From positions 1 to 51,297 of the IMG/VR virus record IMGVR_UViG_3300013111_000216: a stretch of DNA of 51,297 nt, one strand, 5' to 3'. Under the pieces are notes generated by a model, which was not told the origin of the DNA, made no database searches, and worked only from the letters and a program-made list of their open reading frames with translations. The translations under genes were made by a program, and so were the position numbers. Numbering within the stretch: position 1 is the first letter of the stretch; each line of letters opens with the position of its first letter. This DNA comes from a virus. Shown in pieces: positions 1-45,696 of this stretch.

Positions 1-119
1 TCATACCCGTCAATTAGTTTCTCTTGTAGCACAATTCCTTTTATAAAATCAACAAGATCCTCGTTCACAGAGGTCATCTTCCCGTCTTCGCCTAATTCGT
101 GATTGAATAAAACACTATA
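1..119. repeat. Terminal direct repeat (copy 1), assembly overlap
   Basis: These 119 bases are identical to 51179-51297. The repeat lies inside the reading frame of the giant minus-strand gene, and the frame continues correctly when the two ends are joined. A physical direct terminal repeat would more usually lie between genes, so this looks like the k-mer-sized overlap left when an assembler closes a circular or circularly permuted genome. The true unique length is then about 51,178 bp. A real packaging repeat elsewhere cannot be excluded. Confidence 0.93.
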
Positions 120-3100
120 TTGACTACTTGACATACTTATTGTAATAGGATCAACATGCTTATTAGGTAATGGATGAATCAACAACTCTTCTTTTTCTGG
201 ATAATAAAAAGTATTCATTAAAGCACTTTTTCTAGTAGAAGATTCGTTTGGATCAGCTGTCTCGGCATATATGGCTTCAAACGTAAGCATAAGATTTACA
301 TAGTCATCACGCTTTCTATAAATATCCATACTCACCGATTCAGACTTACGAAAAGGAAGCGCCACTTCATAAGGACCAAGCGTAACAGAATCCAAGAAAT
401 TAACTTTCCTAATCATCTCCCGCAATGAAAAGTGTTCTGGAAAATATGCTCTTAAAACTTCCGCTAGGAGATGTTTCTTCGGAAGGGCTAGATGCATATG
501 ATCACCTTCCTCTACAAAATCCTTTACATAGTCAGCAGGTCTTTGATTAAACTTCAACGGTGTTACGTCATAAAGCTCTTGCAACTTAACACTATTTGAA
601 ATATTCACCGGGATAACTTGATCGTATTCCGAACCTCTTTTATCATATATATGAACCTGAGCTAAACCACTTACCATCATTCTATCTTTTGCATAAGATT
701 CTTGATACTTTAAATCTTTTTTCTCAACAGAGATATGACCAATTACAACTGGTTCGTTGCTATTAGAATTAATAGCTACCACGTCTCCTTCAAAGGTATT
801 GTATCCAGTACTACTTACTTCTTCTATGTCCATTCTAGTTGTCCCATAACGAGACAAATTAATTCCATCTGTTTCAACCAAAAGCAAATCACCCGGCATG
901 TCGTCGAAGTCAGGCCCGAGAATCATATCTGGATATTCTTCAGCTATAGAATACAACCCTGCTGAGTGAATAGTTCCACGATCAATCCCGTATATCTCCA
1001 ACGCCTTAATATAATCCTTGATGGGCATTCTGTCTTTCTTGCGGAACACTTTGATAGGAGACTTAGGATTCCCCAGAGATGCCATTGCTTTGGCTGCTTT
1101 TGTTTTGTAGAAAAACTCAGCTACAGTCTTATTAAGTTCGCTATGATGCGGTGCTTGGAAGAGAGCAAATCCTTTACCCTTTCGCTCTTCGGCTAGCAAC
1201 CGAGCGTTGGAGCGTTCCACGTATTCTTTATTAAGATCGAATCCAACAAAGTGACGACCATTCTCAGCAGAGATTTTACCAACTGTGCCAGAGCCAGAGA
1301 ACGGATCAACAACCACGTCGCCGGGATCTGTAGCTTCATCGATGAATAGTTGAGCAAGACTACGAGGCATTGGCGCAGGGTGCCATGGGATATTAGCTGG
1401 TGCTCCTTCTACCACATCCCCACGTACGTAGGGCTCACCTTCTTTTCCCTGTATCTTCTTGGTGTGATACTTTGGCTTCTTACTTTTCGATAAGACAAAG
1501 ATATCCTCAGTCAACTGTGTAGGTGCGCCTTCCCTTTTACGCCGAGTATTCGTCTTCCGCCAGCGGGTCTTGGAAAACACATGGAGACCGACGTCTTGAG
1601 CCAACACAGCAAGTTTCTCAGGAGTGAGGAAGAATTCACCTTGGCGGGTGTCACTAATATTGATCACCATTACGCCGTCTTCTTTCAACACACGCTGAGA
1701 GCGGATAAGAACATGCTTCATGTATTCTAGATATTGTTCCTCAGTGTCAACACGACCAAGATCACCCTCACCAATATCATAGTCAATATGCTTCTTTCCA
1801 AAGTACGGAGGGGATGTTATAATCGCCTGGACGGTTCCTTCTTCTATCTGAGCCAACCCGTGAACTGCGTCAAACTGATAGTGACGATCTACGTCGAGGT
1901 TTCCTATGATTGGTGTACTATCAGCTTCTTCATCTGCCTTCTCTATCAACCAGAAGATATACTCAGGTAGAGTGTCGTAAACTAAATCGATCTCCTCCTT
2001 GTTAAGTAACTGAAGTTCTTGCAAACGGTAGTATTCAAACAGCTCTGAGAATTTAGTAAAGTCAGCCTGAACCTCTCCGCCATTCAAATCTTGAAGAAGT
2101 ATCTCCTCACTCCGTCCTGCCTCTTTCGAGAGAATGAAGTCGGTCATTTTACCTTCAACGACAAACGCTTGGAGGTGATCCTCTATGTATTCATCAATGG
2201 ATTTGTCTTCAGAAACTGCCATTGCTCGTAAGAGGTACTCCGCAATGTCTGCTTGGAGCTTAGCTTGTTTCCTCGTAGCAGGCTTCCGGCGGGTGGCACC
2301 GCGAGCTTCTGGGTCTTCGATAGATACAGTCTTACCAGACTCTGGGTCAGTTACTTTTCCTTCATAATAAGGATTTGTCTGCGCATGACGGATGATCATA
2401 TCTCGGATATTACGCAGAGTTGGTACGGCTGTTCCCTCGTATAAGCGCACGTCTGAGCGGTCGAAGTGGATTAGATCACCATCTTTATCCCCCTTCACCC
2501 TGCCTTGATACACGTTGTCGTCAAGTTGTCTAACAACCTCAATGAGTGACGACCCATCCCTCAGCTCGACAACTTCCCCAACGTTATAGTATGCCGGCAC
2601 CATATCTGCACGCCGGACACGTTCCATCAGACGCTTAGCGATTATGTTAGATGCTTTCCTATCAGGGTCTTTCTCCTCATACTTCTGACCAAATTGACGT
2701 TGGAGGGGAGTAGCTGCCCCGCCACCAATAGCCCCTGCCACCGCACCTGTTGTACCCGCATAGAGAGCCCCTTCAACTGGGTCAGGTAAGTCACCCTCTT
2801 CCAGTTCAAGACCAAGCTCTTTTTCGAGATACCTCTTCATTATCGCCTGCTGGCCGAGAAAAGCTATGACTTCCTCTGCTCCTTCAATCGGCGCAGCCTT
2901 GGTAGCATTCTCGATACCTTGTGCCCAGGCGTTCATCAACCCCTTAGCATACGGCTTGTCCAAGAACCCAAGAGCCCGAACAAAGAACAGATCGCCCGCA
3001 GCCTCAGAACCAAGCTCTACTGCACCAGCCATGTTGCCATATTCCATCAGCTTTTCACGGCCCTCGAGAATCTTCTGATCTATCTGTTCTTCAGACAAAC

Positions 3101-3869
3101 CCTCTCGAGCATAGATGTGCCTAGCTGTACGTTCGGTACTGTCAATAAGATCCTTCTTTGCGGAATAGAAGAACATTCCGTAACGACCTAAGTTGGCCGC
3201 AAACTGGCCAACTCGTGCTGCCGCTGGCATGTTCCTGGTAGTCGCTGCAGTGGATAGAAACGCTCCTACACCCAACGGCCAAGTCGGGGCACTAGACCCT
3301 ACGGAAGTTATATTAGTTCTCAATCCGTTGAAAATATGATCTTCAACTGAATCATACTCGAAATAAGATCTACTCTCCTCCGACATCTGAGAGCCAAACT
3401 TCTGGAACTCTTCTACGTTTATTTCCGTCTCTTCGCCTTCAAACATCTGAGGCGGCATATAGCCTTTTTCTCTCACGTCAGCATTTACAACGTGTTGGAA
3501 AATTGCTTTGGCATTATCATCGAATTCAAACCAAGCACCATAACCTTCTATCACTTCACCCATCGCAGCTTCAGGAATCTTAGCAAACTCCTGCATCATA
3601 GGCATTGGTTTTCTATAGTAATTAATAAAGTGATTCCACTCTTCCCAAGATAGATCCTCTTTATAAATATTATAAGCATCTTGACGCATTTCGGGGTTGA
3701 CTGAAAGAATATCCATCCACTCCTGGGGTTCTTTCGTCTGTCGACCCTCCGCAGCACCGATGTCGAGGTACTTTTGATAAGCTGCGTCGAAGTCAATCTT
3801 AGGCTTTTCTGCTCGCCGTCCTACTTCCTTCGCGACGAATCGAAGCATAGGATTTATGTATTCAGGCAT
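1..3869 (-). CDS. Giant polyvalent virion protein, N-terminal part with DNA methyltransferase domain (partial in window)
   Basis: This is the 5' part of a gene whose 3' part is at 46909-51297. I read the frame through from the ATG at 3869 and found no stop. Joined across the contig ends the product is 2,712 residues. It starts MPEYINPMLRFVAKEV, overlapping the previous stop as TAATG. Residues about 190-430 hold Ala/Gly-rich helical stretches. Around residue 684 is AIITSPPYFGKK and around 855 DPFSGSGTVGK. These are motif IV (TSPPY) and motif I of an amino-methyltransferase in beta-class order, as in N4-cytosine or N6-adenine enzymes. Its place after the capsid, tail-tube and gp13-like genes matches the large ejected core protein of T7-like phages (inference). 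The methylase could modify phage or host DNA on entry. The target is unknown. Confidence 0.9.
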   Translation of the reverse strand, partial: MPEYINPMLRFVAKEVGRRAEKPKIDFDAAYQKYLDIGAAEGRQTKEPQEWMDILSVNPEMRQDAYNIYKEDLSWEEWNHFINYYRKPMPMMQEFAKIPEAAMGEVIEGYGAWFEFDDNAKAIFQHVVNADVREKGYMPPQMFEGEETEINVEEFQKFGSQMSEESRSYFEYDSVEDHIFNGLRTNITSVGSSAPTWPLGVGAFLSTAATTRNMPAAARVGQFAANLGRYGMFFYSAKKDLIDSTERTARHIYAREGLSEEQIDQKILEGREKLMEYGNMAGAVELGSEAAGDLFFVRALGFLDKPYAKGLMNAWAQGIENATKAAPIEGAEEVIAFLGQQAIMKRYLEKELGLELEEGDLPDPVEGALYAGTTGAVAGAIGGGAATPLQRQFGQKYEEKDPDRKASNIIAKRLMERVRRADMVPAYYNVGEVVELRDGSSLIEVVRQLDDNVYQGRVKGDKDGDLIHFDRSDVRLYEGTAVPTLRNIRDMIIRHAQTNPYYEGKVTDPESGKTVSIEDPEARGATRRKPATRKQAKLQADIAEYLLRAMAVSEDKSIDEYIEDHLQAFVVEGKMTDFILSKEAGRSEEILLQDLNGGEVQADFTKFSELFEYYRLQELQLLNKEEIDLVYDTLPEYIFWLIEKADEEADSTPIIGNLDVDRHYQFDAVHGLAQIEEGTVQAIITSPPYFGKKHIDYDIGEGDLGRVDTEEQYLEYMKHVLIRSQRVLKEDGVMVINISDTRQGEFFLTPEKLAVLAQDVGLHVFSKTRWRKTNTRRKREGAPTQLTEDIFVLSKSKKPKYHTKKIQGKEGEPYVRGDVVEGAPANIPWHPAPMPRSLAQLFIDEATDPGDVVVDPFSGSGTVGKISAENGRHFVGFDLNKEYVERSNARLLAEERKGKGFALFQAPHHSELNKTVAEFFYKTKAAKAMASLGNPKSPIKVFRKKDRMPIKDYIKALEIYGIDRGTIHSAGLYSIAEEYPDMILGPDFDDMPGDLLLVETDGINLSRYGTTRMDIEEVSSTGYNTFEGDVVAINSNSNEPVVIGHISVEKKDLKYQESYAKDRMMVSGLAQVHIYDKRGSEYDQVIPVNISNSVKLQELYDVTPLKFNQRPADYVKDFVEEGDHMHLALPKKHLLAEVLRAYFPEHFSLREMIRKVNFLDSVTLGPYEVALPFRKSESVSMDIYRKRDDYVNLMLTFEAIYAETADPNESSTRKSALMNTFYYPEKEELLIHPLPNKHVDPITISMSSSQYSVLFNHELGEDGKMTSVNEDLVDFIKGIVLQEKLIDGY

Positions 3870-4807
3870 TATTCAGTCCCAGTCTCTGCACCTAAGTACG
3901 GGAAATCAAAACTATCCAAAATCTGTCTGGCCCTGACTTGCTCTTCTTCTGAAGGGGTGAAGGGTTTAACTGTCCCATCAGCCTCCATCCGGCGAACCAT
4001 CCTGCCATTGGCAATATCGTTGAGTTGCTTGAAGTACGTTGCCCATCCCTTACTGTACATACCCTGAGCGCGGCTGATATCCGGGAGTAATCCGGAAGAG
4101 CTAGCTACCGTAACTGCGCCCATCATTCTGTCGTTGGTAGAACGAGGGGCTCGTGTACCCCCGGCGTTTTCGAGAGATAGTGCTTTGAAGAATACGTCTT
4201 CGTTTATATCATATACAACTTTGCCTGTTTCTGGATCTGTGCGCGACATAACTCCGGGGACCTGAGTTTGATCGAATTCTTGTATAGCCGCACCTATTGC
4301 TTCGGTTTCCTTCTTTGTCTTACTAGTCTCAGCCTCTATATTCTCTATCTTAATCTCTTCCATACGATCTTCGATATCTGCCAACTGCTGGTCAATATCA
4401 ACCTTGGCTTGTTCCATTAGAGCTTGGTGAGCAAACATGGTTTCTTGGAACTCGAATTGATTCCGTTGGATCATTGCGTCTTGAACCTGCTTCTGCTGAG
4501 TTGGATCAAGGATCTCGAGATCATCAGGGTTTGGTTGGTATCCTTGGTTAACCTCATCAATGGCTTTTGCCAAGACCTCCTGCCCAGCACTCTGCAGAGC
4601 ATAGTCAGCGATTGTCTGGACGGCTTTGTTCTCTGGGGCGAAAGCCTTGCCGAGAGTAGCCAGTCCCATTGCGCGCTTAGCGGGCATGGTTGCGGATTTT
4701 CCTATATCCTCTGGCATCACACCCATAGGGGCTTTTTCCATAGGATTAAATGTTGTAGTCAGTGGTGGGTTCACAGGTTTCTTAAATCTAATCGTTCTTT
4801 CTTCCAT
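3869..4807 (-). CDS. Putative internal virion or ejection protein, 312 aa
   Basis: No family recognised. The protein is highly charged and helical. A long Glu/Gln/Lys-rich stretch at about residues 110-190 (IDQQLADIEDRMEEIKIENI) looks like a coiled coil. It sits between the 561-residue protein and the giant protein, the position of T7 internal core genes 14-16, so an internal core role is inferred. An upstream TTG is in frame, but the ATG at 4807 follows GGAGG by a normal distance and is preferred. The last bases overlap the next gene as TAATG. A perfect GTTACA-TTT-TGTAAC palindrome lies at 4828-4842, just ahead of the ribosome site. Confidence 0.8.
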   Translation of the reverse strand: MEERTIRFKKPVNPPLTTTFNPMEKAPMGVMPEDIGKSATMPAKRAMGLATLGKAFAPENKAVQTIADYALQSAGQEVLAKAIDEVNQGYQPNPDDLEILDPTQQKQVQDAMIQRNQFEFQETMFAHQALMEQAKVDIDQQLADIEDRMEEIKIENIEAETSKTKKETEAIGAAIQEFDQTQVPGVMSRTDPETGKVVYDINEDVFFKALSLENAGGTRAPRSTNDRMMGAVTVASSSGLLPDISRAQGMYSKGWATYFKQLNDIANGRMVRRMEADGTVKPFTPSEEEQVRARQILDSFDFPYLGAETGTE

Positions 4808-4827
4808 CTCTCTATCCTCCAAGCGGT

Positions 4828-4842
4828 GTTACATTTTGTAAC
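4828..4842. promoter_or_regulatory. Dispersed palindrome site 1, GTTACATTTTGTAAC
   Basis: Perfect inverted repeat GTTACA/TGTAAC with a 3-base centre, flanked by a further T..A pair. It lies in the 42-bp gap ahead of the 312-residue protein. One of ten copies of GTTMCA-N3-TGKAAC in the genome. Confidence 0.75.
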
Positions 4843-4849
4843 ACTTCTT

Positions 4850-6535
4850 TTATCCGTTTAAGAATCCTGCCAATATACCGGCGGTTATTGCAACTGGAGC
4901 ACCGCCGGGTATCGCCGCCATTGCTGCTTCTGGCAACGCAGCTGCGGCCAAACCACCTCCGATACCACCACCGATCGTCTCAGCCATAGTTGGTTTCGTA
5001 CCCCCGACCGAAGATGTAGCACCCGCCATACCAGCCACGATGTTAGAATACTCCTGCCACATATCCATAGGATAACCCATAAAGTTATTTTCCCAAGCGG
5101 CTTTTTCTTTATACCACTTTATTATATCATCGTGATTAGACTTATCTCTCAGATATTGGTTATGAGTATATGTTTGATAAAGACCGGCCCACTGCGCTTT
5201 ATTCGACGCATAAGCCAAGCCGGTAGTCTTGACAAAGTCAGTTCCTGTCGTTCTACTATTAGCTTTATCCGCTACGAAACTCCTCAACGAGGTATCGAGA
5301 ATTCCTTTGAAAGCATTCAACCAATTTGAAACACCCTCGTCCCCCGACTTAACAAGATTATTAAACCCTGACGACTCATGCTGTGCGAGTGTCCCCAGTG
5401 CATTAGCATAGATCTGAGGGAACGTCAAGTATGCTTGCAACCAAGTTTTAAGGGCAGTATCTTTGAGTGCCGCAAAAGTTGAGAGATACTGCTGGAGATA
5501 ACTGAAGTAGTTCGAGATATACACTTGTAGTGCAGTAGTAAAAGTTGAGATAAACTGGTCGTGGGTTTTATAGAATATCTCTTTCTCTAACTCTGCCCGA
5601 AACTGGGTGATTTGCTTAGAATGATCACTCTCGATCGTAGCCATACCCACCCAGAAAGCCAGTCCGTTAGATGCATTCGCTTCAACAGCTGAACTAGCGA
5701 ATCTGTTCTTAGAACGATAAAACTCGTTTTCGAGGTTACTTTCAAAAGCATCAACGATGGAGTCAATCACAGTGTCATCAATAGCCGCCTGAGCAACTGT
5801 GAGAGCTTGGGTAAATGCCAGTTGGATATAGTTATCTGTGTCGTTCAAGAGTAGGTTAATTGCCTTAGTAACCCCCGAGTCCAACATAGTATCTGCGCGA
5901 CCGTCTGCTTCGTTGGTTGTAGTAAACAACTCTAGCCGTGAAGCATTCCCCGCCGCCAGACTAGCAGATATTATATCCGTATCTGCCTGAGTATTCGCAT
6001 CATCGAACACCGACTTAACCAACGGGTCATCATCTACCACGCCAAGAACACTACGCGCAGACGAGAGAAAACTCGTCATGAGTCCTCTGGAAGATGAACC
6101 GAAACCCGCTGATTGTGTTGCTTGAGCAAGACCAAAAATGAAGGCCGTTGCATCTATCTGTTCCATCCACTCTTCTGTATTATCAACCCAGGTTCCTACC
6201 TCGCCAGTATCAAAAGAGTCGATAAAATGTTGCTCGAGATAATCTCTCCAGTAAGCAAAAGCATAGCTTATGGAATTCACGACGTTGTTTAGATTATCTG
6301 AATTGAATCTAGATTGTGTACTAGACTCTTGTGGGCCTGCTCTACCCTCAATATCTGTGGTAGTAACATCTGTAGTAAACCCAGTTGTATCCCAAGGGTT
6401 GAAGGTATCACCTATTCTGTCGTAGACAAAATCATCCATCCAGTTCATACGAGTCAACAAGGTAGTCCGCAACGGATCACCCGCCGATCCCCACAACCAC
6501 GAGGAGACACCGCCTCCACTGCTTCCACCAGACAT
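4850..6535 (-). CDS. Putative internal virion protein, 561 aa
   Basis: No family recognised. The ATG at 6535 follows a strong T7-like ribosome site (AAGGAGATATAAA), which decides against an in-frame start further up. The N-terminus is Gly/Ser-rich (SGGSSGGGVSSW). The middle is Asn/Gln/Ala-rich helix, and the last 45 residues are Gly/Ala-rich and hydrophobic (PGGAPVAITAGILAGFLNG). This pattern of soluble helix plus a hydrophobic tail suits an ejected protein that inserts into the cell envelope. Position downstream of the gp13-like gene suggests the gp14/gp15 role in a T7-type core (inference from order only). Confidence 0.8.
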   Translation of the reverse strand: MSGGSSGGGVSSWLWGSAGDPLRTTLLTRMNWMDDFVYDRIGDTFNPWDTTGFTTDVTTTDIEGRAGPQESSTQSRFNSDNLNNVVNSISYAFAYWRDYLEQHFIDSFDTGEVGTWVDNTEEWMEQIDATAFIFGLAQATQSAGFGSSSRGLMTSFLSSARSVLGVVDDDPLVKSVFDDANTQADTDIISASLAAGNASRLELFTTTNEADGRADTMLDSGVTKAINLLLNDTDNYIQLAFTQALTVAQAAIDDTVIDSIVDAFESNLENEFYRSKNRFASSAVEANASNGLAFWVGMATIESDHSKQITQFRAELEKEIFYKTHDQFISTFTTALQVYISNYFSYLQQYLSTFAALKDTALKTWLQAYLTFPQIYANALGTLAQHESSGFNNLVKSGDEGVSNWLNAFKGILDTSLRSFVADKANSRTTGTDFVKTTGLAYASNKAQWAGLYQTYTHNQYLRDKSNHDDIIKWYKEKAAWENNFMGYPMDMWQEYSNIVAGMAGATSSVGGTKPTMAETIGGGIGGGLAAAALPEAAMAAIPGGAPVAITAGILAGFLNG

Positions 6536-6536
6536 T

Positions 6537-6953
6537 TTATATCTCCTTGTAACAGTACCGCTGCTCCACAGCACCGAATCTTTGTAAGAACTTAGACCAT
6601 GCTTCGGTAGTATACGTTGCTATCCCGGAGCACCCAGCCTCTTTTGCATATTCAATTAGTTCGAGAAAGCCCTCTTTTAGGACTTCCTTCTCCAACCTAT
6701 CATCGGCTGGTATGATCATATAGATTAACATAGTCTTCTTTGATAGAATCTCATCCTGGGTGTAGTTTACTAACACACTCCCATAGATCTTCTGCTTCTC
6801 TTCATTAACAAGAACAAAAGCTTCTAAGTGTGAGGTAATCAAAGCGACGCGGATTCTCTCAGCATTCTCTCCTGCGCCTACTAATTCTTTTACCACATGA
6901 CCGTTGGTTTCCCAAAACAGATCAACGTTCGTCGGCAGCACTCGTACTAGCAC
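6537..6953 (-). CDS. GNAT-fold protein, T7 gp13-like
   Basis: A 138-residue protein with the pattern of an N-acetyltransferase fold: beta strands around VALITSHLEAFVLVNEE and KTMLIYMIIPADD, a long helix, then TYTTEAWSKFLQRFGAVEQR as in GNAT C-termini. T7 gp13, which occupies the same place after tail tube B, has about this length and is also described as GNAT-like. The role there is in assembling the internal core. The likely start is GTG at 6953, preceded by GAGGT, overlapping the tail-tube gene by 32 bases. Catalytic acetyl transfer is not implied. Confidence 0.65.
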   Translation of the reverse strand: MLVRVLPTNVDLFWETNGHVVKELVGAGENAERIRVALITSHLEAFVLVNEEKQKIYGSVLVNYTQDEILSKKTMLIYMIIPADDRLEKEVLKEGFLELIEYAKEAGCSGIATYTTEAWSKFLQRFGAVEQRYCYKEI

Positions 6954-8517
6954 GGATACCTCGATAGTAGGTTTTGTCTTCTGGTTGGACGCGTACTTCG
7001 ATTTTGTGAATCTCGACGTCGTTCGAAGGGTCTAACCCCTCCACCTGGATCTTAAACTCTTTACCAGACAAACCGACGAAGACAGCCCCTTCCTTGTTCA
7101 CATCCTTAACCCGGCTGGTATAGATCTCCCCATCTTGCTCATACCGCGTACCTACGGTAACTTGAATATGATCCAAATCCTTGCCGCGGAACAAGATCCA
7201 TGTTATCTTCTTGTTCCCACTATAACCGAAGTCCATCCACTCAGTGGTTGCCTCAACCGTTAAGGAGAAAGTCCTTCGGCCATATAACAGACTCTCGCCG
7301 CTAGGCTTAGAAGTCACACCTGTTATCCGATAAGGGATGTTGAACAACTTACTACTTTCCTTCAGTACAAACTGCTCTTCGCCGTTTCCGATATAGAAAT
7401 AGCCCGAATCGTTGTCATACGACATCGCCACAAGGCTAAGATCTGTCCAAGCATCAAAGAATTCTCTATAACCTAGATTGGTCATCTCTAAATCCCGCCC
7501 AATGTGGATTAGGTAACCCTCGTTTGAGATATAAATAGTTTCATTCAACCCTCTGCACCAAGCACTCCTGGAGATACAACCTGGGAACCTTTGCTCTACA
7601 AAACCATAACCGAAAGTCTGCACAGGACGAACCGCCCGTGTGATTTCTGTCCCTAGTATAAGCAAATATGGATCCATGTCCGACAAACCTACTACCGAAC
7701 CCGCCTCAGGAACCGGCATCCATCCGAGATCCGCCTGTTTCACCTGCTCGTGGAACCAACGCCTCTGCCCCGTTGCACTCGAATAACCGTAGTCATTCTC
7801 TCCAGTTATACCTCTAGTTGCATAATCTGTCTCCCATAGCCACATCAAGTTGCCGCCAACACTACTCCATAGGATCATATGTTCGTCTGGCAACCAGTGT
7901 TGATTCTCCATCCTGAATATACCATCCAAGACAACGTCATAACCGCCTGTTACCCATGACCTCAGCATTTCAAAGAAGCCCTGATTCATCCCTGCGCCTT
8001 GATCAAAGCCGCCAACCACAGTCCTGCCACGATGCGCAGTTATCGTATTCACAATAGGACGGGAGGTGCCGACTATAATCTCGTCCACGCCGTCTCTAAA
8101 AGGACCAAACCAAGGACTAAAGTACAAAATACAACTGCCATTACAGAAGGTACCCGCCTGACCATGATCAGCAAAGTGCCAAGAACCACCTCCTGTTACA
8201 GTAAAAGTAGACGCAGTATTAGAAAATTTCTTAATATCGTCAAATTCTTGAAACTGATTCTGCCCATAAAGATACTGATACACCGCAGTTTTGGTCAAAA
8301 CCCACGTGCGATCAATCCCTCTGAATACCTGCGGGAAAGGCCAGTTGAAATAATCTTCGATTTCAAAATAGTCAGGCCCTGAGAACCTGCGGACGCCATT
8401 CTCGAACGGCTCCAGATTGTTAAGCGAAGTCATACCGGGCACGTTAGTCCGGGCGTCCTCAGCCGTCCGCAGGCCAGCGGTAAAGAAATCAGTTATATCG
8501 TTGCCGTATTCTCTCAT
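6922..8517 (-). CDS. Tail tubular protein B-like (nozzle), 531 aa
   Basis: The protein begins DITDFFTAGLRTAEDARTN, with a pattern (NVPGMTSLNNLEPFENGVRRF) common at the N-terminus of podovirus nozzle proteins. It is rich in beta strand and aromatic residues (WPFPQVFRGIDRTW, LMWLWETDYATRG), consistent with a multi-bladed nozzle subunit. It directly follows tail tube A with a 4-base ATGA overlap, as gp11 and gp12 pair in T7. The role is to form the distal tail channel below the portal. Confidence 0.7.
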   Translation of the reverse strand: MREYGNDITDFFTAGLRTAEDARTNVPGMTSLNNLEPFENGVRRFSGPDYFEIEDYFNWPFPQVFRGIDRTWVLTKTAVYQYLYGQNQFQEFDDIKKFSNTASTFTVTGGGSWHFADHGQAGTFCNGSCILYFSPWFGPFRDGVDEIIVGTSRPIVNTITAHRGRTVVGGFDQGAGMNQGFFEMLRSWVTGGYDVVLDGIFRMENQHWLPDEHMILWSSVGGNLMWLWETDYATRGITGENDYGYSSATGQRRWFHEQVKQADLGWMPVPEAGSVVGLSDMDPYLLILGTEITRAVRPVQTFGYGFVEQRFPGCISRSAWCRGLNETIYISNEGYLIHIGRDLEMTNLGYREFFDAWTDLSLVAMSYDNDSGYFYIGNGEEQFVLKESSKLFNIPYRITGVTSKPSGESLLYGRRTFSLTVEATTEWMDFGYSGNKKITWILFRGKDLDHIQVTVGTRYEQDGEIYTSRVKDVNKEGAVFVGLSGKEFKIQVEGLDPSNDVEIHKIEVRVQPEDKTYYRGIRASTSAADER

Positions 8518-22055: not shown

Positions 22056-22586
22056 TTAGGCCAAATACGCCGATGGACCAACAGGAGCGAGAAACCATAC
22101 CATGACACGACCAGATACATAGATCGTATCGTCGTCCCCGGCATCTGGAGCGGCATTCGCGGTTACGACAATAGTAATTGCCGCCGCCGCAGGGACACCA
22201 ATCTCCGAGAACCCATTACCATCTGCATGGGTCCAAGAAGTGTCCTCCGCAATCAGCACACCGTCTGCATAGTCATCCGTATCCACACCTGTCGAACCAA
22301 CGTCATAGTTCGCAGTCGTTGGGACACCTCCAACCGGCCCAGCTACCCCAGCAACAGCAAGGATAATTGCACCCTTTGGAATAGTCTCCGTTAGAGACGC
22401 GGTCGTGGCATTGCCCGTAATTGTCCACGTCTCGTTAATTATATGAACTCTGAGATAACCACCACCGTTGGTAGTCGCCTCAGGTCCACCAACCGCCAGA
22501 TTAAAATCATTCACGGCATAAATGGTGTCCAACACCAGTGCCGGATGATTCTCATACTGACGACTGCCTACCGTCCCTTGGCTCAT
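22056..22586 (-). CDS. First late gene: probable structural protein, 176 aa
   Basis: No certain family. Ala/Gly/Val/Thr-rich, beta-structured (TIPKGAIILAVAGVAGPVGG, AAAITIVVTANAAPDAGDDD, SGRVMVWFLAPVGP). The composition resembles capsid decoration or fibre proteins. The start at ATG 22586 follows AGGAGG at an ideal distance, whereas an in-frame start 28 codons earlier would put hydrophobic residues in front and lacks a site. It is the first gene of the leftward block, so it is likely made in large amounts. Confidence 0.65.
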   Translation of the reverse strand: MSQGTVGSRQYENHPALVLDTIYAVNDFNLAVGGPEATTNGGGYLRVHIINETWTITGNATTASLTETIPKGAIILAVAGVAGPVGGVPTTANYDVGSTGVDTDDYADGVLIAEDTSWTHADGNGFSEIGVPAAAAITIVVTANAAPDAGDDDTIYVSGRVMVWFLAPVGPSAYLA

Positions 22587-22638
22587 GACAAAACCTCCTA
22601 AAAAGGAAACAGAAAAGAAACAATACACCTCTACCCCC

Positions 22639-22652
22639 GTAATATACGTAAC
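22639..22652 (-). promoter_or_regulatory. Leftward TTACGTATATTAC element ahead of the late operon
   Basis: On the minus strand reads GTTACGTATATTAC, about 53 bp before the first late ATG. The 13-mer TTACGTATATTAC is identical to plus-strand copies at 25237 and 34460, each also pointing at the nearest downstream gene. TATATT could act as a -10 box, or the phased TTAC words could bind an activator. Confidence 0.6.
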
Positions 22653-22812
22653 AAAGGACGCCAAATCCACCCTCTAACCCCCCATTACTCCCCACTGAAC
22701 AAATGTTTATTCACTTTTTTCATTCCTACGTTGGTGTGAGGTTTTCGCGTGCGTACGTAGCGCGTAGCCCCCGAGTTACCCCTCCCTAACTTTGGAAGGT
22801 AAAACTATCAAT

Positions 22813-22975
22813 GTTAGCCTGTCCAAACACGCCAGTATGTTAGGCTCTACTAACAAGCAAAGAGTTAGGCTTTCCTAACTGTTCAGCTAAGTTAGGAGAG
22901 ACTAACACACTGCCAGCGAGAGTTAGGAAAAACTAACTGGCATGGTAATTGCGACAGCTGTTAGGCTATACTAAT
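22813..22975. promoter_or_regulatory. Array of six GTTAGG-N4-6-CTAAC operator-like palindromes
   Basis: Copies start at 22813 (degenerate), 22839 GTTAGGCTCTACTAAC, 22864 GTTAGGCTTTCCTAAC, 22891 GTTAGGAGAGACTAAC, 22922 GTTAGGAAAAACTAAC and 22960 GTTAGGCTATACTAAT. The arms are constant while the central four to six bases vary, which marks protein-binding half-sites rather than simple duplication. Spacings are 26, 25, 27, 31 and 38 bp, so neighbouring sites lie on roughly similar DNA faces only in part. The last two interleave with the sigma-54-like promoters. Confidence 0.8.
22938..22952 (+). promoter_or_regulatory. Sigma-54-like promoter motif A (weak)
   Basis: TGGCATGGTAATTGC has the required GG-N10-GC spacing and two departures from TGGCACG-N4-TTGCA. 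Starts right at the end of the palindrome at 22922. Confidence 0.5.
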
Positions 22976-22991
22976 TGGCACAGAGTTTGCA
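22975..22991 (+). promoter_or_regulatory. Sigma-54-like promoter motif B
   Basis: TTGGCACAGAGTTTGCA matches the -24/-12 consensus with one change and keeps GG-N10-GC. Abuts the palindrome at 22960. Confidence 0.6.
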
Positions 22992-22999
22992 CTAAAAAA

Positions 23000-23017
23000 C
23001 TGGCACAATAGTTGCAA
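23000..23017 (+). promoter_or_regulatory. Sigma-54-like promoter motif C
   Basis: CTGGCACAATAGTTGCAA matches the -24/-12 consensus with one change and keeps GG-N10-GC. Shares the ending TTGCAACG with motif D. Confidence 0.6.
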
Positions 23018-23026
23018 CGTTGTTAA

Positions 23027-23044
23027 TTGGCACGATTTTTGCAA
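23027..23044 (+). promoter_or_regulatory. Sigma-54-like promoter motif D (best match)
   Basis: TTGGCACGATTTTTGCAA is an exact fit to TGGCACG-N4-TTGCA with GG-N10-GC. It is the closest of the four to the early genes and would start transcription near 23055, about 275 bp before the first ATG. Confidence 0.65.
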
Positions 23045-23329
23045 CGAAACGTGTTGAAAAATGTTACCTAATCTAAGTTGTGTATAACCAACGAGTTAGA
23101 AAAAAAGTGGCGAGTTAGGGGCGCCAAACTGGCTCCTTTTGTTTATTTGGCTTTTTTATTCCGTAAGATGTCTATCGAGCGCTGGGCACGCAACCGGCGC
23201 GAGTGCAGTCCGCGCGAACGTGGCGACTAGTAGTGCGGTGGATCTATGACAAGCTACGGTTTACGGTGTCGTGTGGGTGGGTGGCTCGCTAACCGAATTA
23301 CCACCTACGGGTGAGAAAGTGAGTTACTC

Positions 23330-23794
23330 ATGGCAGAAGACAAAACAACCAAGTGCGAACAGCTCAAGAAGAACGAGGACGGTAGTATTGTGCTCGACTT
23401 GGGTTATCGCAAGACTGGTATGGACGGACCGAATGTTGATCCTAAGACTGGTAAGAAGGAGCGTTTGCCAGTGTGGGATGGACAGCTGACTCTGGTCGTG
23501 CCGAAGGATTTAGTCGCTACGATGCTTGAAAAGGCAGCGGGTGGCTGGCTGATTACGGCACAAGGTCAGATGCGCAAGCATCCGGAACAAGTCAAGGCAG
23601 TGAAGGATCGCGTTACTTGGACGATGGCTGACCATATGGGCAGCGGAACTCGCGAGAGCGATGCGATCAAGAACTTGCGTGCAAAGATTGAGGGCACGCG
23701 AGAGATGCTGGCTGACAAGGATATTACGGAAGAGAAAGCTAAGATCCGGATTAAGGGTCTTACTAACGAGCTGAAGAAGTTGCTGAAGAGCTAA
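23330..23794 (+). CDS. First early protein, hypothetical, 154 aa
   Basis: Not recognised. Charged and Lys-rich. DLGYRKTGMDGPNVDPKTGK is followed by strand-like LTLVVPKDLVATMLEKAAGG, then a Lys/Glu helix pair at the C-terminus (KNLRAKIEGTREMLADKD and LTNELKKLLKS). Codon choice is GC-rich and the gene reads well from ATG 23330. The ribosome site is weak (GTGAG). First gene after the promoter array, so probably made early and in quantity; host takeover roles are usual at this place. Confidence 0.7.
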   Translation: MAEDKTTKCEQLKKNEDGSIVLDLGYRKTGMDGPNVDPKTGKKERLPVWDGQLTLVVPKDLVATMLEKAAGGWLITAQGQMRKHPEQVKAVKDRVTWTMADHMGSGTRESDAIKNLRAKIEGTREMLADKDITEEKAKIRIKGLTNELKKLLKS

Positions 23795-28741: not shown

Positions 28742-30283
28742 ATGTCTACTTTTAATTACTACGTAGATTGGGAGGCCGCACCTGGCGGCGACGGTTCTAT
28801 CGGCACACCGTTCCAGACAATCGACGAGGCGCGTGCCGAAACAGGAGCAAAGATACTTGACACGACAATCGGTGCGGGTGATCTTGTATACTGGCAGATC
28901 GCCCCTGGAACATATCGTGAGGAAGTTTCAACATCTAATTACAAAGTTGCAGATGTTGATCTTACTATACGAAGCACGGGCTCTGCTCCGGTCATTGTCA
29001 AAGCCTCTGAAGTTGAGAGCTCTTGGACCGCCGATACAGGGTCGATATACTATTGTACGTGGACCAACGATTGGTGGGTTTCCCTCGACGATGAAGGACT
29101 AATCTACGGCGGTGTCCAGTATGACGCCGGATGGGATGCTTGGTGGTCTTCCGTTGACGGCCCTTGGTATTATATGCTAGAGGCTGCTTACGACACTACG
29201 GTTGGAGACGCAAGGGCGCAGATGTTATCTCGAAGAGAAGGAGTATTTGTCAATGAGACTACCCCGCTCCTTCAGGTTCTTTCAAAAGACGATATGGTGG
29301 CCGGGACTTTCTTTGTAGACCAGACGGCGGACCGCATCTATGTTTGGCTCGCAGACTCGTCCGACCCAGCTAATCACACAATGGAACTGACGTCTCGCGA
29401 CAGATGTTTTGACTTCGACAACATGGCAGACATAAGGTTCGAGCGAATCAACACGCTCCACTCTGGTCTCCGTGGCTTCGACGTTATTACATCGACTAAC
29501 GTGAGATTCACACGGTGCCGTGCTGAGTGGAACGTAAACATGGGTGTGCAGACAAACAACTGTAGCTCCATCCAGCAGATTAGGTCTCACTTTGATAACA
29601 ACGGAGATCTTGGTTGGTCCTGTGCATTTTGTGGAGAAGGAGGAACCCTGACGTGCGATTGTCTCAGTGCTAACTACAACAACTGGCATGGCGCGAACGC
29701 AGATGCAGGCAACTGGAGAGTAGCAGGCATTAAGTTCTACGCTGTTGCTCATGTGACTATTAATAATTTGACTGCGATTGGCAACTACACCTATGGCCTA
29801 TGGTTCGACCGTTGGTGTTGTGACATCGAGATTAACCACCCGTACCTTGTTAACAACTACGGGCCGGGATTGTTCTGGGAGATTTCACCAGGACCGTGCG
29901 TGATCAACTACCCGACTATCACCGGGAACGGTCTGCACGATGCGATACAACCAGCTCTAACCACACACGACTGCGGAGTGCTAATCAACTCTGCGTCGAA
30001 CATAACTATGAACTACCCCAAGATATGGGGCAATCACGGGAAACAGTGGTACATAGAAAACAGCGGTAGACAGGCACGCCTCTGGGGTGAATACGGGGAG
30101 CTGGACGAATACTCGGCCGCTATCAACGTAACCGATCACGTTATCAGGCGCAAACTTGACGACGGCGAACAATTCATAGAAACATACGGTTCCAACTCAG
30201 TCTTATCAGCCTATTGGAACCTCTTAACGGTCACCCCGTCTCGGGCAGAAACAGAACTGGAACCCGAACTTGACCAAGGATAA
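28742..30283 (+). CDS. Right-handed parallel beta-helix protein, 513 aa
   Basis: The N-terminal pattern NYYVDWEAAPGGDGSIGTPFQTI is the common opening of parallel beta-helix (pectate-lyase-like) proteins. Repeats of strand turns follow: DIRFERINTLHSGLRGF, NVRFTRCRAEWNVNMG, VTINNLTAIGNYTYGL and NITMNYPKIWGNHGKQ. These are coils of about 22 residues. Such folds occur in tailspikes, depolymerases and cell-surface enzymes. It lies among early genes on the plus strand and away from the fibre genes, which is odd for a virion part. No signal peptide was seen. Catalytic residues cannot be assigned by eye. Confidence 0.75.
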   Translation: MSTFNYYVDWEAAPGGDGSIGTPFQTIDEARAETGAKILDTTIGAGDLVYWQIAPGTYREEVSTSNYKVADVDLTIRSTGSAPVIVKASEVESSWTADTGSIYYCTWTNDWWVSLDDEGLIYGGVQYDAGWDAWWSSVDGPWYYMLEAAYDTTVGDARAQMLSRREGVFVNETTPLLQVLSKDDMVAGTFFVDQTADRIYVWLADSSDPANHTMELTSRDRCFDFDNMADIRFERINTLHSGLRGFDVITSTNVRFTRCRAEWNVNMGVQTNNCSSIQQIRSHFDNNGDLGWSCAFCGEGGTLTCDCLSANYNNWHGANADAGNWRVAGIKFYAVAHVTINNLTAIGNYTYGLWFDRWCCDIEINHPYLVNNYGPGLFWEISPGPCVINYPTITGNGLHDAIQPALTTHDCGVLINSASNITMNYPKIWGNHGKQWYIENSGRQARLWGEYGELDEYSAAINVTDHVIRRKLDDGEQFIETYGSNSVLSAYWNLLTVTPSRAETELEPELDQG

Positions 30284-30305
30284 ACTGAAAAAGGAGGACA
30301 ACGAT

Positions 30306-31037
30306 GTGTTAGTTCAACAGTATAGAGTTAACAGAACAGATGATGCAGCGGCCCGGCCACGTAGGTGGAACGCAATCCTAATGTGTCTCTACGACTACGA
30401 ACCTATCCACGATAGGATAAAGGAGAGAGAAGCCGGACACGATGCGGTTTTCTTCTTCATTCCCGTAGAAAGGCCGCGTACATTCATCAAGAAAATCGTG
30501 GACATGTATCACCCACACGTGGTAGACAAACTCCTTTGGAGTGACATCAATCATGCTTTCACGTGGCTACAAAACACCTGTGAGTGTGGTGACCGACGTA
30601 AAGCAAAGGGTTGGGAGGCAAGGGTAATGGGTGACCTTCCTCCACTGGCTAAAAACAGACTAGAACGGGAAGAAGTAGCTTGGGAAGAAGAAACTCCATC
30701 CAACCTCAGTAAACAAATCAACGATTTTCTCAAGCAAACAAGAAAAAAGAAAGGCACCAAGATGACTTCAAAAGATCGTCTCGATAGGTGGTGGAGAGAC
30801 GTAAACGCCGCCATGCATCTTATCAACGTCAAGCCAACAAAGGAGGAGGGTAGCACCTCTCTCGAAATCAACGTCGCTTGGCCTCTCAGCATCGCACCAA
30901 CGAAAAGCGAAATCGCTCGTATGACAACCATGTGGGAGGATAACTCTCCTCCTAATTTTGAAATCGACGACGTTTCGTTCGATGGAGAAGATAGTGAAGT
31001 AATCTTCAACGTTACCGTCACAGCACCAGAAGACTAG
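30306..31037 (+). CDS. Hypothetical protein, 243 aa
   Basis: Not recognised. Start chosen at GTG 30306, 8 bases after AAGGAGG; a TTG 36 bases upstream lies in the end of the beta-helix gene. Aromatic and charged (WNAILMCLYDYEPIHDRIKE, then RPRTFIKKIVDMYHPHVVDK), with a Lys-rich middle and a beta-rich end (SLEINVAWPLSIAPTKSEIA). Followed by a UUCG terminator. Confidence 0.68.
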   Translation: MLVQQYRVNRTDDAAARPRRWNAILMCLYDYEPIHDRIKEREAGHDAVFFFIPVERPRTFIKKIVDMYHPHVVDKLLWSDINHAFTWLQNTCECGDRRKAKGWEARVMGDLPPLAKNRLEREEVAWEEETPSNLSKQINDFLKQTRKKKGTKMTSKDRLDRWWRDVNAAMHLINVKPTKEEGSTSLEINVAWPLSIAPTKSEIARMTTMWEDNSPPNFEIDDVSFDGEDSEVIFNVTVTAPED

Positions 31038-40972: not shown

Positions 40973-41234
40973 GGGAATGAGAAACTCTATTTGTGATCTA
41001 ACCCCTGCGACCGCAATCGCCATTATTCTCGAACAAAGACGCGAGCGCATGGAGTTTACAATAGCCACATCAAAACGCAACTACACCAAAGCGCAGAAGA
41101 CGCGCATCAACAAGTCTGTCAAGAAAAAGGAAGCCTTCCGGGATCTAGCTGCTTCCCTTGATGAAGATAAACTACGTGAACTGTTAAAGAAAAGATTCGG
41201 AGACGACAGTGTTCCAGAAGCCAACGCGGACTGA
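40962..41234 (+). CDS. Hypothetical basic protein, 90 aa
   Basis: Not recognised. Helical, Lys/Arg-rich (RKSNYTKAQ-like stretch ATSKRNYTKAQKTRINKSVK), and a C-terminal helix (DLAASLDEDKLRELLKKRFG). ATG at 40962 after GGAGG; TTG one codon earlier was rejected. Overlaps the methyltransferase gene by 26 bases. Confidence 0.68.
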   Translation: MKLEGMRNSICDLTPATAIAIILEQRRERMEFTIATSKRNYTKAQKTRINKSVKKKEAFRDLAASLDEDKLRELLKKRFGDDSVPEANAD

Positions 41235-42564
41235 TACGATTGAAAGAAAAACAATCTTTGTGGGGGAACGTGCTAGACAGGATATCGAAGATAAGGAATT
41301 ACAAAACTTGGTTAAGTCCATCAGATCGGTCGGATTGATCGAGCCGTTGGCTGTAGTGGAAGGAGGCCCAGATGGCCACAAATATACCCTTCTGGCTGGA
41401 GGCAGGAGGATCATCGCTTGCGACAAACTCGACTACGACGAGATACCAGTTAACATATACCCGAAAGATATCGACGAAGAACAGCGACAAACCATCGAGC
41501 TCCACGAAAACCTGCACCGCGTTGACCTATCGTGGGCCGAAGAAAAACTTATCAAAGCCAAGATCCACGAGCTACAGCTCAAGGTCAAGGGGAAAAAATC
41601 TGCCACCAATCCCGAGGGTGCGTCAATGGCAGAGACGGCGAAGGAGCTGAAGACCTCCAAAGCCGACGTCTCCCGTGCCGTGCAAATGGCCGAGGCGTTG
41701 AAGGCCCACCCTGAGTTGGCCAAAGCTAAGACCGAGAAGCAGGCTCGGCAGATGTTGGATCGTATGGAACGTGAGGTTCGTGCCAAGAAGATTGCACAGG
41801 AGGTTAAGGAAGAATCCTCTGCGGGCGGCAAGTTCAAGAAGATGGTTATCTCGTCCTACGTCACCGGGAACGCCCTCGAAGGGTTATCCCACGTCGCAGA
41901 GAACACTGCTGACTTGATGCTTATTGACCCTCCGTATGTGATCGACTTTGCCAAACGCCGCGACGAGACCCGCAACCATGATATTGACTACACTGAGTGG
42001 GCTCACGACGATATGCTACAGAATATACCCGCCGTCCTTGCGTATGCCAGCAAGATACTCAAGCCGGAGGGTTGGCTAATACTATGGTTCGCCACAACTT
42101 ATCAACAATTCCTATACGATATGCTCGGTAAGTTCAAATTCGCTGCGAATACAATGCCGGCGATCTGGTACAAAGGAGGTCAAGGTGAAACTATGCGCCC
42201 TGACATGGCCCTCGCACCAACCTACGAGCCTTTCATCTATGCGCGCCACGCTGGTGCGAAGGCAAAGTTGGTTAAGAAGGGCCGCTCGTGTGTCTTCCAC
42301 TTCAAACCTGTTCCACCAGCGAAGAAGATCCACGAGACCGAGAAGCCTATCGAACTCATGGAGGAAATCATCGCGACTTTCTCCGGAGTTCACGACCGCA
42401 AAACTATCGTTTCTCCTTTTCTTGGCTCTGGGAACGATATTCTGGCTGGAGTTAATCACGGACACCGTGTTATCGGTTGGGACCTCAGCGAGAAACAGTC
42501 TGAACTCTTCGCGGATCGCGTGATGTCCTCGATTCACCCGTTTAGGAGTTATGATGAAGGTTGA
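41209..42564 (+). CDS. ParB-domain/DNA methyltransferase fusion, 451 aa
   Basis: N-terminal ParB-like domain (residues about 1-190): ELQNLVKSIRSVGLIEPLAV, LLAGGRRIIACDKL and QTIELHENLHRVDLSWAEE, then a helix-turn-helix-like KELKTSKADVSRAVQMAEAL. C-terminal methyltransferase: DLMLIDPPYVIDFAKR (about 240, motif IV DPPY) and, later, VSPFLGSGNDILAGVNHG (about 400, motif I) in beta-class order. Such fusions are widespread in phages and probably N6-adenine or N4-cytosine enzymes. GTG 41209 follows GGAG. The target and any link with the dispersed palindromes are unknown. Confidence 0.85.
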   Translation: MFQKPTRTDTIERKTIFVGERARQDIEDKELQNLVKSIRSVGLIEPLAVVEGGPDGHKYTLLAGGRRIIACDKLDYDEIPVNIYPKDIDEEQRQTIELHENLHRVDLSWAEEKLIKAKIHELQLKVKGKKSATNPEGASMAETAKELKTSKADVSRAVQMAEALKAHPELAKAKTEKQARQMLDRMEREVRAKKIAQEVKEESSAGGKFKKMVISSYVTGNALEGLSHVAENTADLMLIDPPYVIDFAKRRDETRNHDIDYTEWAHDDMLQNIPAVLAYASKILKPEGWLILWFATTYQQFLYDMLGKFKFAANTMPAIWYKGGQGETMRPDMALAPTYEPFIYARHAGAKAKLVKKGRSCVFHFKPVPPAKKIHETEKPIELMEEIIATFSGVHDRKTIVSPFLGSGNDILAGVNHGHRVIGWDLSEKQSELFADRVMSSIHPFRSYDEG

Positions 42565-43092: not shown

Positions 43093-43237
43093 CCGTTGTA
43101 CTCACTCGAAGACATACCGAGTAGAGAGCTGGAACGTCTTAGTTGCTTTCATGGCACGGGACGACTGGTTGAACTACAAAGACGCTGACGAATGGAACCA
43201 TCACTGTTCGGAGTGTAAGAAAGAGACACTTTCATGA
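43031..43237 (+). CDS. Small Cys-rich protein, 68 aa
   Basis: CDRCTHSKTYRVESW and, at the end, HHCSECKKETLS give two CxxC pairs, a zinc ribbon. AAGGTAG precedes the ATG. The stop overlaps the polymerase ATG, so the two are coupled. Confidence 0.68.
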   Translation: MIKQDYDSSTQETLVFDVHCDRCTHSKTYRVESWNVLVAFMARDDWLNYKDADEWNHHCSECKKETLS

Positions 43238-45696
43238 ACCTAGTACCCGGTCAAGGCCCACTTGATGCACAGATCTGTTTCGTTGGTGAGGCACCCGGCC
43301 ACAAGGAAGCGGCGGTAGGTATACCATTTATCGGTCCCGCTGGTTCGCTTCTTTTCGACCAGCTAGCTCGTGCCGCCGGTATCGTGCGTAACCAGTGTTA
43401 TATCACCAACGTCGTAAAAACTCTACCCCATAAGAGCATAAGTAGCTTCGTCGATCTAAGCAAAAAGCAGGCGGTTGAATCCGACGCCTTTGTAGAATTC
43501 AAGAGTATTCTAAAAGAAGAGCTTGAACAGATACGACCAAACGTGGTTGTGGCTGTCGGTAATGTACCGCTATGGGCCTTGACAGGTTTGAAGGGGATAA
43601 CTAAGTGGCGGGGTTCTATATTGGAATCCACCCTGGTACCGGGTCTCAAGGTTATTCCAATCATCCACCCGGCGTCCGTCCTTCGGGGTATGTACAAGTG
43701 GCGCCACTACATACAACGTGATCTAGCGAGGGTCTTGTCGGAATCTGTCTCCCCTGACATCATATCTCCCAAACACGACTTGATCCTCGCTCCTGACTTC
43801 ACCACATCGATGGAGTTTCTCGAGGATTGCAAAAAGGCGAAGGAGGTGGGCTTTGATATTGAAGTCATGCACGATCACATATCCTGTTTCAGCTTCTCAA
43901 TCGACGAGCGAACAGCAATTTCTATACCTATCCAATGTAAAGCCGGGCACTACTTCGATCCTGACCAAGAGACAGCTATTATCACTACGATGGGAGATGT
44001 TCTTGAGAATCCGGACATCGAGAAGGTCATACAGAACGCAATCTTTGACTCAGGTTTTGTATACAATGATTATGGGATAGTAACCAATAATATGTTCTGT
44101 ACAATGGTGGCACATAAGATGCTCTACCCTGAGTTTGAAGCAGGGTTGGACTTCATGACCTCTGTCCTAACCGAGGTTCCATACTACAAGGACGAGGGTA
44201 AGATATGGGGTAAACTAGTATGGGAAGAACGGGACTTCTGGCGCTACTCTGCGTTGGACTCCGTAGTCCTTCTCCCCATCAAACACAAACTCGAAGCACA
44301 GTTGGACCGAGTGGGTATTCGAGATTCCTTCGATATCAGAATGGCGCAGTTGCACCCACTACACGCCATGACATTCTACGGAGTGAGGACAGATCACAAT
44401 GGGCTTCAAAACGAACGCGATAAGTTGGAGGGGCAAATCGCCCGGAACCAGCAGACCCTCGACGATCTTGTCGGACGACCTCTCAATCCAAATTCCACGA
44501 AACAGCTTCAAGACTACTTCTATAACGAACTTAATATCAAACCGTACATCAATCGAAAGACTAAGCGACCAACCACAGACGCTACGGCACTGGTGCGACT
44601 TAGCACAACTCATGGAAGAAAAGAAGCCTCAACCATCCTCGATATCCGACATGATAGAAAGTTACTGTCAACCTATTACGATGCAAAGTTAGACGACGAT
44701 GGACGTACGCGTGGTAACTACAACCCGGCCGGCACACGGTCCGGAAGGCTTTCATCATCTAAGACGATCTTTGGTACCGGTCTTAATATGCAGAATATCC
44801 CACCTGGGATGGACAGGTATCTCGTTGCAGATGATGGGTATGTTATTATCTCTATCGACCTCTCCCAAGCCGAAAACCGTGTGGTTGCATATATCGCGCC
44901 GGAGCAGAAAATGCAGGCCGCCTTTGAAAGAGGAGAGGATATTCACGCTCTCACTGCATCGGCCATTTTTAAGATACCTCCTGATCAGATAAGCGACGAA
45001 CCCGGATCTGCGCCGTTCGCTGGAGGGAAGTATTCACAAAGGTTCTGGGGAAAGAAGGGGAACCATGCGATCAACTACCACGAAGGGCACGTCACATTCG
45101 CGCTCCAGAATGAGATGCCTCAAAAAGAGGCGAAACTTATTCTTGACTCGATTCTCGCGATGTATCCGGGACTACCTAACTACTGGGCTTGGATTGAACG
45201 TGCTATCCGTTCAGACAGAACTCTTATCGACTGCTTCGACAAGAAGAGAATCTTCTGGGGAGATCCTCGCGATAACGATACGATGCGAGAGGCTTACTCA
45301 TTTATACCACAATCTACTGTGCGACAGATCATGGATAGATGGGGAATGCTCTATGTCTACAACGAGCCAGAGCTCAGCGAAGTCATCCAAATCCGCGACA
45401 AACACGACTCGATGGATCTCCTTTTCCCACTCAAGCATGGCTGGCGTTGGATCGCTGAGCGAGTATTTCTCATCACCCGTAACCTTGAGCAGCCCCTTTT
45501 CTATCGAGGAGCAGAATGGACAATACCTGCTGATGTCTCCATAGGTATGAACCTTGCCAAGAGGGATAAAGACAATCCTATGGGGCTCAAGGAGTGTACC
45601 AATTTCAAGTATGGCTCCGGTACTGGCCCTATGGCCGCTGCGTTAGAAAAAGATGCCACCGAACCACTAAAACTATTCGAAGATCTCTATGTTTGA
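43234..45696 (+). CDS. Uracil-DNA-glycosylase-like domain fused to family A DNA polymerase
   Basis: Residues 1-175 resemble family 4/5 uracil-DNA glycosylase: CFVGEAPGHKEAAVGIPFIG, then IIHPASVLRG. The N-terminal CxxC usual for the iron-sulfur cluster is absent. Then a 3'-5' exonuclease: VGFDIEV (207), QNAIFDSGFVYND and YSALD. Polymerase motif A is SIDLSQAENRV (539). Motif B is KKGNHAINYHEG, with His where pol I has the key Lys758. REAYSFIPQSTV follows, and motif C is DKHDSMD rather than HDE. This polymerase would replicate the phage genome. A similar fusion is known, to my memory, in SPO1-type phages. Confidence 0.9.
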   Translation: MNLVPGQGPLDAQICFVGEAPGHKEAAVGIPFIGPAGSLLFDQLARAAGIVRNQCYITNVVKTLPHKSISSFVDLSKKQAVESDAFVEFKSILKEELEQIRPNVVVAVGNVPLWALTGLKGITKWRGSILESTLVPGLKVIPIIHPASVLRGMYKWRHYIQRDLARVLSESVSPDIISPKHDLILAPDFTTSMEFLEDCKKAKEVGFDIEVMHDHISCFSFSIDERTAISIPIQCKAGHYFDPDQETAIITTMGDVLENPDIEKVIQNAIFDSGFVYNDYGIVTNNMFCTMVAHKMLYPEFEAGLDFMTSVLTEVPYYKDEGKIWGKLVWEERDFWRYSALDSVVLLPIKHKLEAQLDRVGIRDSFDIRMAQLHPLHAMTFYGVRTDHNGLQNERDKLEGQIARNQQTLDDLVGRPLNPNSTKQLQDYFYNELNIKPYINRKTKRPTTDATALVRLSTTHGRKEASTILDIRHDRKLLSTYYDAKLDDDGRTRGNYNPAGTRSGRLSSSKTIFGTGLNMQNIPPGMDRYLVADDGYVIISIDLSQAENRVVAYIAPEQKMQAAFERGEDIHALTASAIFKIPPDQISDEPGSAPFAGGKYSQRFWGKKGNHAINYHEGHVTFALQNEMPQKEAKLILDSILAMYPGLPNYWAWIERAIRSDRTLIDCFDKKRIFWGDPRDNDTMREAYSFIPQSTVRQIMDRWGMLYVYNEPELSEVIQIRDKHDSMDLLFPLKHGWRWIAERVFLITRNLEQPLFYRGAEWTIPADVSIGMNLAKRDKDNPMGLKECTNFKYGSGTGPMAAALEKDATEPLKLFEDLYV

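Follow-up and report, generated by a model that had tools for sequence, protein, structure and literature searches.

Results

Genome organisation

The window analysed here is the whole of IMG/VR virus record IMGVR_UViG_3300013111_000216, a stretch of 51,297 bases. An exact 119-bp repeat is present at both ends of the record, and the window is therefore probably a complete genome. Leftward structural genes (terminase, portal, capsid, lysis) extend from approximately 22,586 across the terminal repeat to 46,909. They face away from a rightward block of early and replication genes, and the two sets are separated by a control region that is the sole divergent junction of the genome:

22587 to 23329, no strand: divergent control region between the leftward structural and the rightward early/replication genes, with no convincing ORF inside
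23330 to 46891, plus strand: early/replication block encoding a ligase, a nuclease (exonuclease), a Sak4-like ATPase, a ParB-methyltransferase, a UDG-DNA polymerase A and a primase
23330 to 23794, plus strand: first gene of the rightward block, encoding 154 amino acids without a family match

The left border of the control region is formed by a leftward ORF (22056-22670), whose true start is likely to be the ATG at 22586, with AGGAGG just upstream. On the minus strand, an ORF of 2,713 amino acids runs across the record ends (46909-51297, continued at 1-3872). In its first part, a segment at residues ~665-930 matches families of phage DNA methyltransferases, and a search of the remainder for family matches returned none. 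Two fused proteins are encoded at 41209-42564 and 43234-45696: one of the pair joins a ParB N-terminal domain to a DNA methyltransferase, the other a uracil-DNA-glycosylase-like domain to DNA polymerase A. Both fusions are also found in a Desulfofustis phage. Within the rightward replication block, positions 28742-31037 encode a right-handed β-helix protein of 513 amino acids, which is structural or depolymerase-like, followed by a 255-amino-acid protein without assignment.

Four -24/-12 elements in the divergent junction

The control region contains four elements of the sigma-54 type, all on the plus strand and within 107 bp:

22937 to 22953, plus strand: sigma-54-type promoter A, CTGGCATGGTAATTGCG, GG-N10-GC (element TGGCATGGTAATTGCG at 22938-22953, GC at 22951); matrix score 16.4, predicted start ~22964
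22975 to 22991, plus strand: sigma-54-type promoter B, TTGGCACAGAGTTTGCA (element TGGCACAGAGTTTGCA at 22976-22991, GC at 22989); matrix score 19.6, predicted start ~23002
23000 to 23016, plus strand: sigma-54-type promoter C, CTGGCACAATAGTTGCA (element TGGCACAATAGTTGCA at 23001-23016, GC at 23014); matrix score 19.6, predicted start ~23027
23027 to 23043, plus strand: sigma-54-type promoter D, TTGGCACGATTTTTGCA (element TGGCACGATTTTTGCA at 23028-23043, GC at 23041); matrix score 20.4, the maximum, predicted start ~23054

In all four the GG and GC are exactly 10 nt apart, within TGGCAYR-N4-TTGCW, and D is an exact TGGCACG-N4-TTGCA. The predicted starts follow from the rule that sigma-54 transcripts begin ~12 nt beyond the -12 box. 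The initial annotation had described four plus-strand motifs with this strict spacing, the same GC positions and the exact match in D, and all of this is present in the sequence. It had also proposed scoring the genome on both strands. Using an approximate -24/-12 weight matrix, with weights modelled on the published consensus and a maximum of 20.4, we found that A-D are the four best sites of the 51 kb (16.4-20.4). A further statement, that no similar motif occurs elsewhere in the window, was right, because the next site scores only 13.5, TGGCAY-N5-TTGC occurs four times on the plus strand and never on the minus strand, and 300 dinucleotide-model shuffles gave a mean of 0.16 such motifs per genome and never two within 110 bp.

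The array is aimed at the rightward early/replication block, and the leader from D to the first gene is ~276 nt long. No sigma-70-type site was flagged in the divergent region by a simple consensus scan, which could miss a divergent promoter. We consider it very probable that A-D are genuine sigma-54 sites, and there is a good chance that they are early-gene promoters.

Palindromes preceding and interleaving the array

Ahead of the four elements and in between them are seven 16-bp palindromes that fit GTTAG-N6-CTAAC (three with a one-base departure), and a possible further copy is found downstream:

22775 to 22790, no strand: palindrome 1, GTTACCCCTCCCTAAC, degenerate
22813 to 22828, no strand: palindrome 2, GTTAGCCTGTCCAAAC, degenerate
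22839 to 22854, no strand: palindrome 3, GTTAGGCTCTACTAAC
22864 to 22879, no strand: palindrome 4, GTTAGGCTTTCCTAAC
22891 to 22906, no strand: palindrome 5, GTTAGGAGAGACTAAC
22922 to 22937, no strand: palindrome 6, GTTAGGAAAAACTAAC, directly abutting promoter A; the same fused geometry is seen in viral loci L144 and L252
22960 to 22975, no strand: palindrome 7, GTTAGGCTATACTAAT, immediately next to promoter B and spanning the predicted start of A
23114 to 23129, no strand: possible degenerate palindrome in the leader, GTTAGGGGCGCCAAAC

The palindrome centres lie at approximately -86 to -271 relative to the predicted start of D (23054), and this is the usual range for enhancers. The nearest palindromes would overlap the promoter or start of A and B. 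The palindromes had initially been read as enhancers or operators. They are real, and either role may apply: those abutting A and B are placed to occlude, and for C and D the palindromes are at enhancer distance.

A de novo dyad search near 66 independent sigma-54 arrays ranked GTTAG-N6-CTAAC first, with four loci near arrays (the window included) and none far from them. In L144, GTTAGTCATAACTAAC is repeated three times in tandem, with a single-base difference in one copy, and each copy is joined to TGGCAC-N5-TTGC or a sequence close to it; L252 contains one very similar unit. Tandem pairs of the palindrome are common in viral contigs of unrelated phages (L130-L249), mostly without sigma-54 sites and often near terminase-like genes. 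No common gene that might encode a binding protein was identified beside the palindromes; their commonest neighbours, read from translations, resembled terminase genes. The window's own matches among these neighbours were only weak, namely TerL and one marginal ATPase match.

Tandem arrays in other viruses

Tandem triples of TGGCAY-N5-TTGC were found in at least 120 viral stretches, compared with five for control triples with an N6 spacer; the motif thus depends on the N5 spacer. In 66 independent clusters, the bases that the search did not fix agree with the sigma-54 consensus, and internal positions vary. The base counts in the viral arrays were G177/A57/C4/T1 at position -20, A114/T101/C18/G6 at -11 and T134/C55/G28/A22 at -27. 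Among 50 viral records with arrays, 49 match the extended consensus; a reversed version of the pattern, used as the control, matches none. The gene downstream of intergenic arrays is co-directional in 22 of 29 cases (p ~0.004, from crude gene calls and with the window included). Distances of 19-23 bp between sites are avoided, and those of 25-29 and 36-48 bp are the most frequent; when we looked for helical phasing, no clean 10.5-bp period emerged. In one family the boxes are 98% conserved and the spacers 90%, a difference that stems in part from selection, given the way in which the loci were collected.

The most extended case is L067, a viral contig of 64% G+C, in which ten sigma-54 consensus sites follow each other at 1963-2252 in an intergenic region with a co-directional gene downstream. 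Other arrays use both strands. In L056 (3660-3780) and L352 (3660-3800), boxes on opposite strands face each other with few bases between them, and in L017 (8252-8448) boxes of opposite strands are interleaved. These convergent and both-strand arrangements fit protein binding or titration better than transcription.

Arrays in prokaryote genomes

A search of 84,980 prokaryote genomes (257 Gb) for the same triples yielded 41 matches, most of which are exact or near-exact minisatellites. Only six of the 41 passed a test on positions -20 and -11, as against 121 of 140 viral arrays. Three of the six (L349, L352 and L368) sit among phage genes, so that at least three of the convincing prokaryote arrays look viral. 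Given how few convincing matches there are, and that at least half of these lie among phage genes, tandem arrays are essentially a viral trait.

The array in L349 is aimed at the structural side. Next to pheT in L368, from a Methylococcaceae MAG, an element with a D5-type primase and six sigma-54 sites occupies 1874-8000; it is possibly an integrated satellite or prophage. The sole array of the six that looks chromosomal is L365, from a Deltaproteobacteria MAG, in which three non-identical sites 25 bp apart (34-100) lie upstream of MotA/TolQ/ExbB-like and CobN-like genes.

Relatives of the window

The nearest annotated relative is Desulfofustis phage LS06-2018-MD01 (OP947158), which shares the gene plan and the order of the replication genes. 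Eleven proteins match at 25-39% identity (TerL 32%, capsid 34%, DNA polymerase 37%, primase 39%), and the replication genes are colinear. With packaging, capsid and replication genes in a shared order, the window belongs to the lineage of this phage. In contrast to the window, the Desulfofustis phage has no sigma-54 array according to the matrix scan.

Further relatives were sought by DNA polymerase, using a two-sequence polymerase alignment. Only seven of 50 such relatives carry even one extended-consensus site; in two of the seven, L338 and L339, a single perfect site lies in a divergent intergenic region. Single-protein scans with TerL and with the first early protein gave no confirmed relative. 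In the divergent region of L104, a more distant relative, there are six sites, and every one faces the early side, away from the terminase. The array therefore varies among related phages, which is what one would predict if its presence tracks the host.

At the DNA level, the control region has no relatives among phage isolates. BLAST of the array loci against isolates returned distant matches only, but led to Vibrio phage VpV262 (NC_003907), a Zobellviridae isolate that is no close relative of the window and shares its divergent genome plan. Near its terminal repeat and ahead of its early genes, VpV262 has four forward -24/-12-like sites (172-325), each departing by one base in the -12 box. 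This imperfect array is the only one among the isolates tested; SIO1, ICP2, O4 and CVT22 have none. A longer segment of VpV262 (L341, 140-700) shows the four forward and two reverse -24/-12-like sites together with repeated ACTGGT/ACCAGT palindromes.

Activator and polymerase genes

Searches with PF00158 (Sigma54_activat) found no enhancer-binding ATPase in the window or in the 50 array-bearing viral records, and the control was positive in 14 of 14 genomes. Activation would thus have to come from the host, and the activator should be the host's own. Pfam and PHROG scans recognised no RNA polymerase among the window's larger proteins; for T7-type polymerase, the control of the PF00940 profile matched nowhere.

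Discussion

The most probable reading of the 107-bp stretch is that of a tandem sigma-54 array from which host sigma-54 polymerase and a host activator would start the early block. Sigma-54-loaded host RNA polymerase would form closed complexes at one or more of A-D; we assume that the host carries rpoN, the nearest isolate being the Desulfofustis phage. A host enhancer-binding ATPase would bind upstream, possibly at the GTTAG-N6-CTAAC palindromes, and open the closed complexes for rightward transcription of the early/replication block. A protein on the palindromes abutting A and B might shut these two while C and D are activated from upstream. The sequences show the elements themselves, their orientation, their clustering, their comparative pattern and the lack of a recognisable activator gene in the phage; that sigma-54 binds, that transcription follows, what the palindromes do and which activator acts are what we infer. 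Two palindromes stand nearer to A and B than a classical enhancer would, which counts against the scheme, as do the small share of polymerase relatives with an extended-consensus site, the lack of any in the Desulfofustis phage and the facing pairs in L056 and L352. The initial annotation had gone further in stating that sigma-54 promoters drive the early region: that promoters of this type are aimed at it is supported by sequence, orientation, position and comparative evidence, and they may also drive it.

Bacterial -24/-12 promoters with upstream sites for enhancer-binding proteins are well known from glnAp2, nifH and pspA. They share with the window the TGGCAYR-N4-TTGCW element with GG-N10-GC, the pyrimidine at -27, the T-rich spacer before TTGC and the presence of upstream palindromes. 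Bacterial operons usually have one sigma-54 promoter, whereas the window has four in 107 bp, in a virus and with palindromes abutting two of them. Moreover, triples other than minisatellites are nearly absent from the prokaryote genomes searched. A viral parallel is provided by the A1-A3 promoters of T7, which are read by host sigma-70. Like the window's elements, they stand in tandem ahead of an early block and would allow a start without a phage polymerase. The window differs in that its promoters are of the enhancer-dependent sigma-54 class and would depend on a host activator.

The main rival is that the array acts as a sink: closed complexes clustered on it would draw sigma-54 holoenzyme off the host's stress or defence regulons, such as the phage-shock response, while the array would itself start few transcripts. 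The ten sites in a row of L067, the both-strand sites of several viruses with the facing pairs of L056 and L352, and the lack of a phage-encoded activator in the records searched would all suit such a role. However, the window's four sites lie in the divergent junction and share one direction, towards the early block; where arrays are intergenic, the next gene downstream tends to be co-directional; and a handful of sites per genome is few for titration unless the genome is heavily replicated. We therefore regard a sink as unlikely.

It is quite unlikely that the elements, though sigma-54 promoters, serve genes needed only under some conditions or later in infection (as in delayed replication) and that the first early genes use another promoter class. 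The simple scan covered the sigma-70 consensus only, the leader downstream of D could hide another promoter, and the L349 array does point at the structural side. Against this, only from the sole divergent junction could the rightward block be transcribed as a single unit, and no sigma-70-like site was flagged there.

Iterons typically form regular tandem repeats close to replication genes, and some arrays occupy both strands, so the elements might be iterons or operators of a phage replication or partition protein that resemble -24/-12 elements by coincidence. This is very improbable, given that the degenerate positions agree with the sigma-54 consensus across independent clusters while internal positions vary, that the N5 spacing is essential, and that the element is common to unrelated phages with different replication genes (among the loci compared, the window's proteins match only L124 and L104). 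Chance or simple tandem duplication, which has only the short length of the motif in its favour, is refuted by the matrix scores and the shuffles, which never produced a cluster, and the spacers differ, with only the boxes shared.

The -24/-12 element itself is of a known kind; its tandem deployment in viruses appears to be new. In the open-access literature that we searched by full text, no account of tandem sigma-54 promoters in phages was found. Early control by sigma-54 had been thought rare at the outset, which is true of that literature and does not hold for environmental viruses, where arrays are common.

Early transcription from sigma-54 promoters would have consequences for the course of infection. 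A sigma-54 promoter gives no transcript before a host ATPase has opened it, and a phage relying on such promoters therefore makes its take-over conditional on host physiology. The arrays suggest that many phages may hold back until a host regulator of stress or nutrient responses has acted. We consider the chances evenly balanced that there is a large unrecognised class of environmental phages, spread over many lineages, that place their first genes under the host's enhancer-dependent sigma-54 polymerase by means of tandem arrays, so that infection would begin only once a host regulator responds to nitrogen, envelope stress or some further condition. That bacterial chromosomes almost lack such arrays points to a design peculiar to viruses. 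If the arrays of the viral stretches found here do depend on a host ATPase, this would explain how many phages without a polymerase of their own start transcription, it would provide a sequence signature for hosts with rpoN, and whether infection waits for a host signal would become testable.
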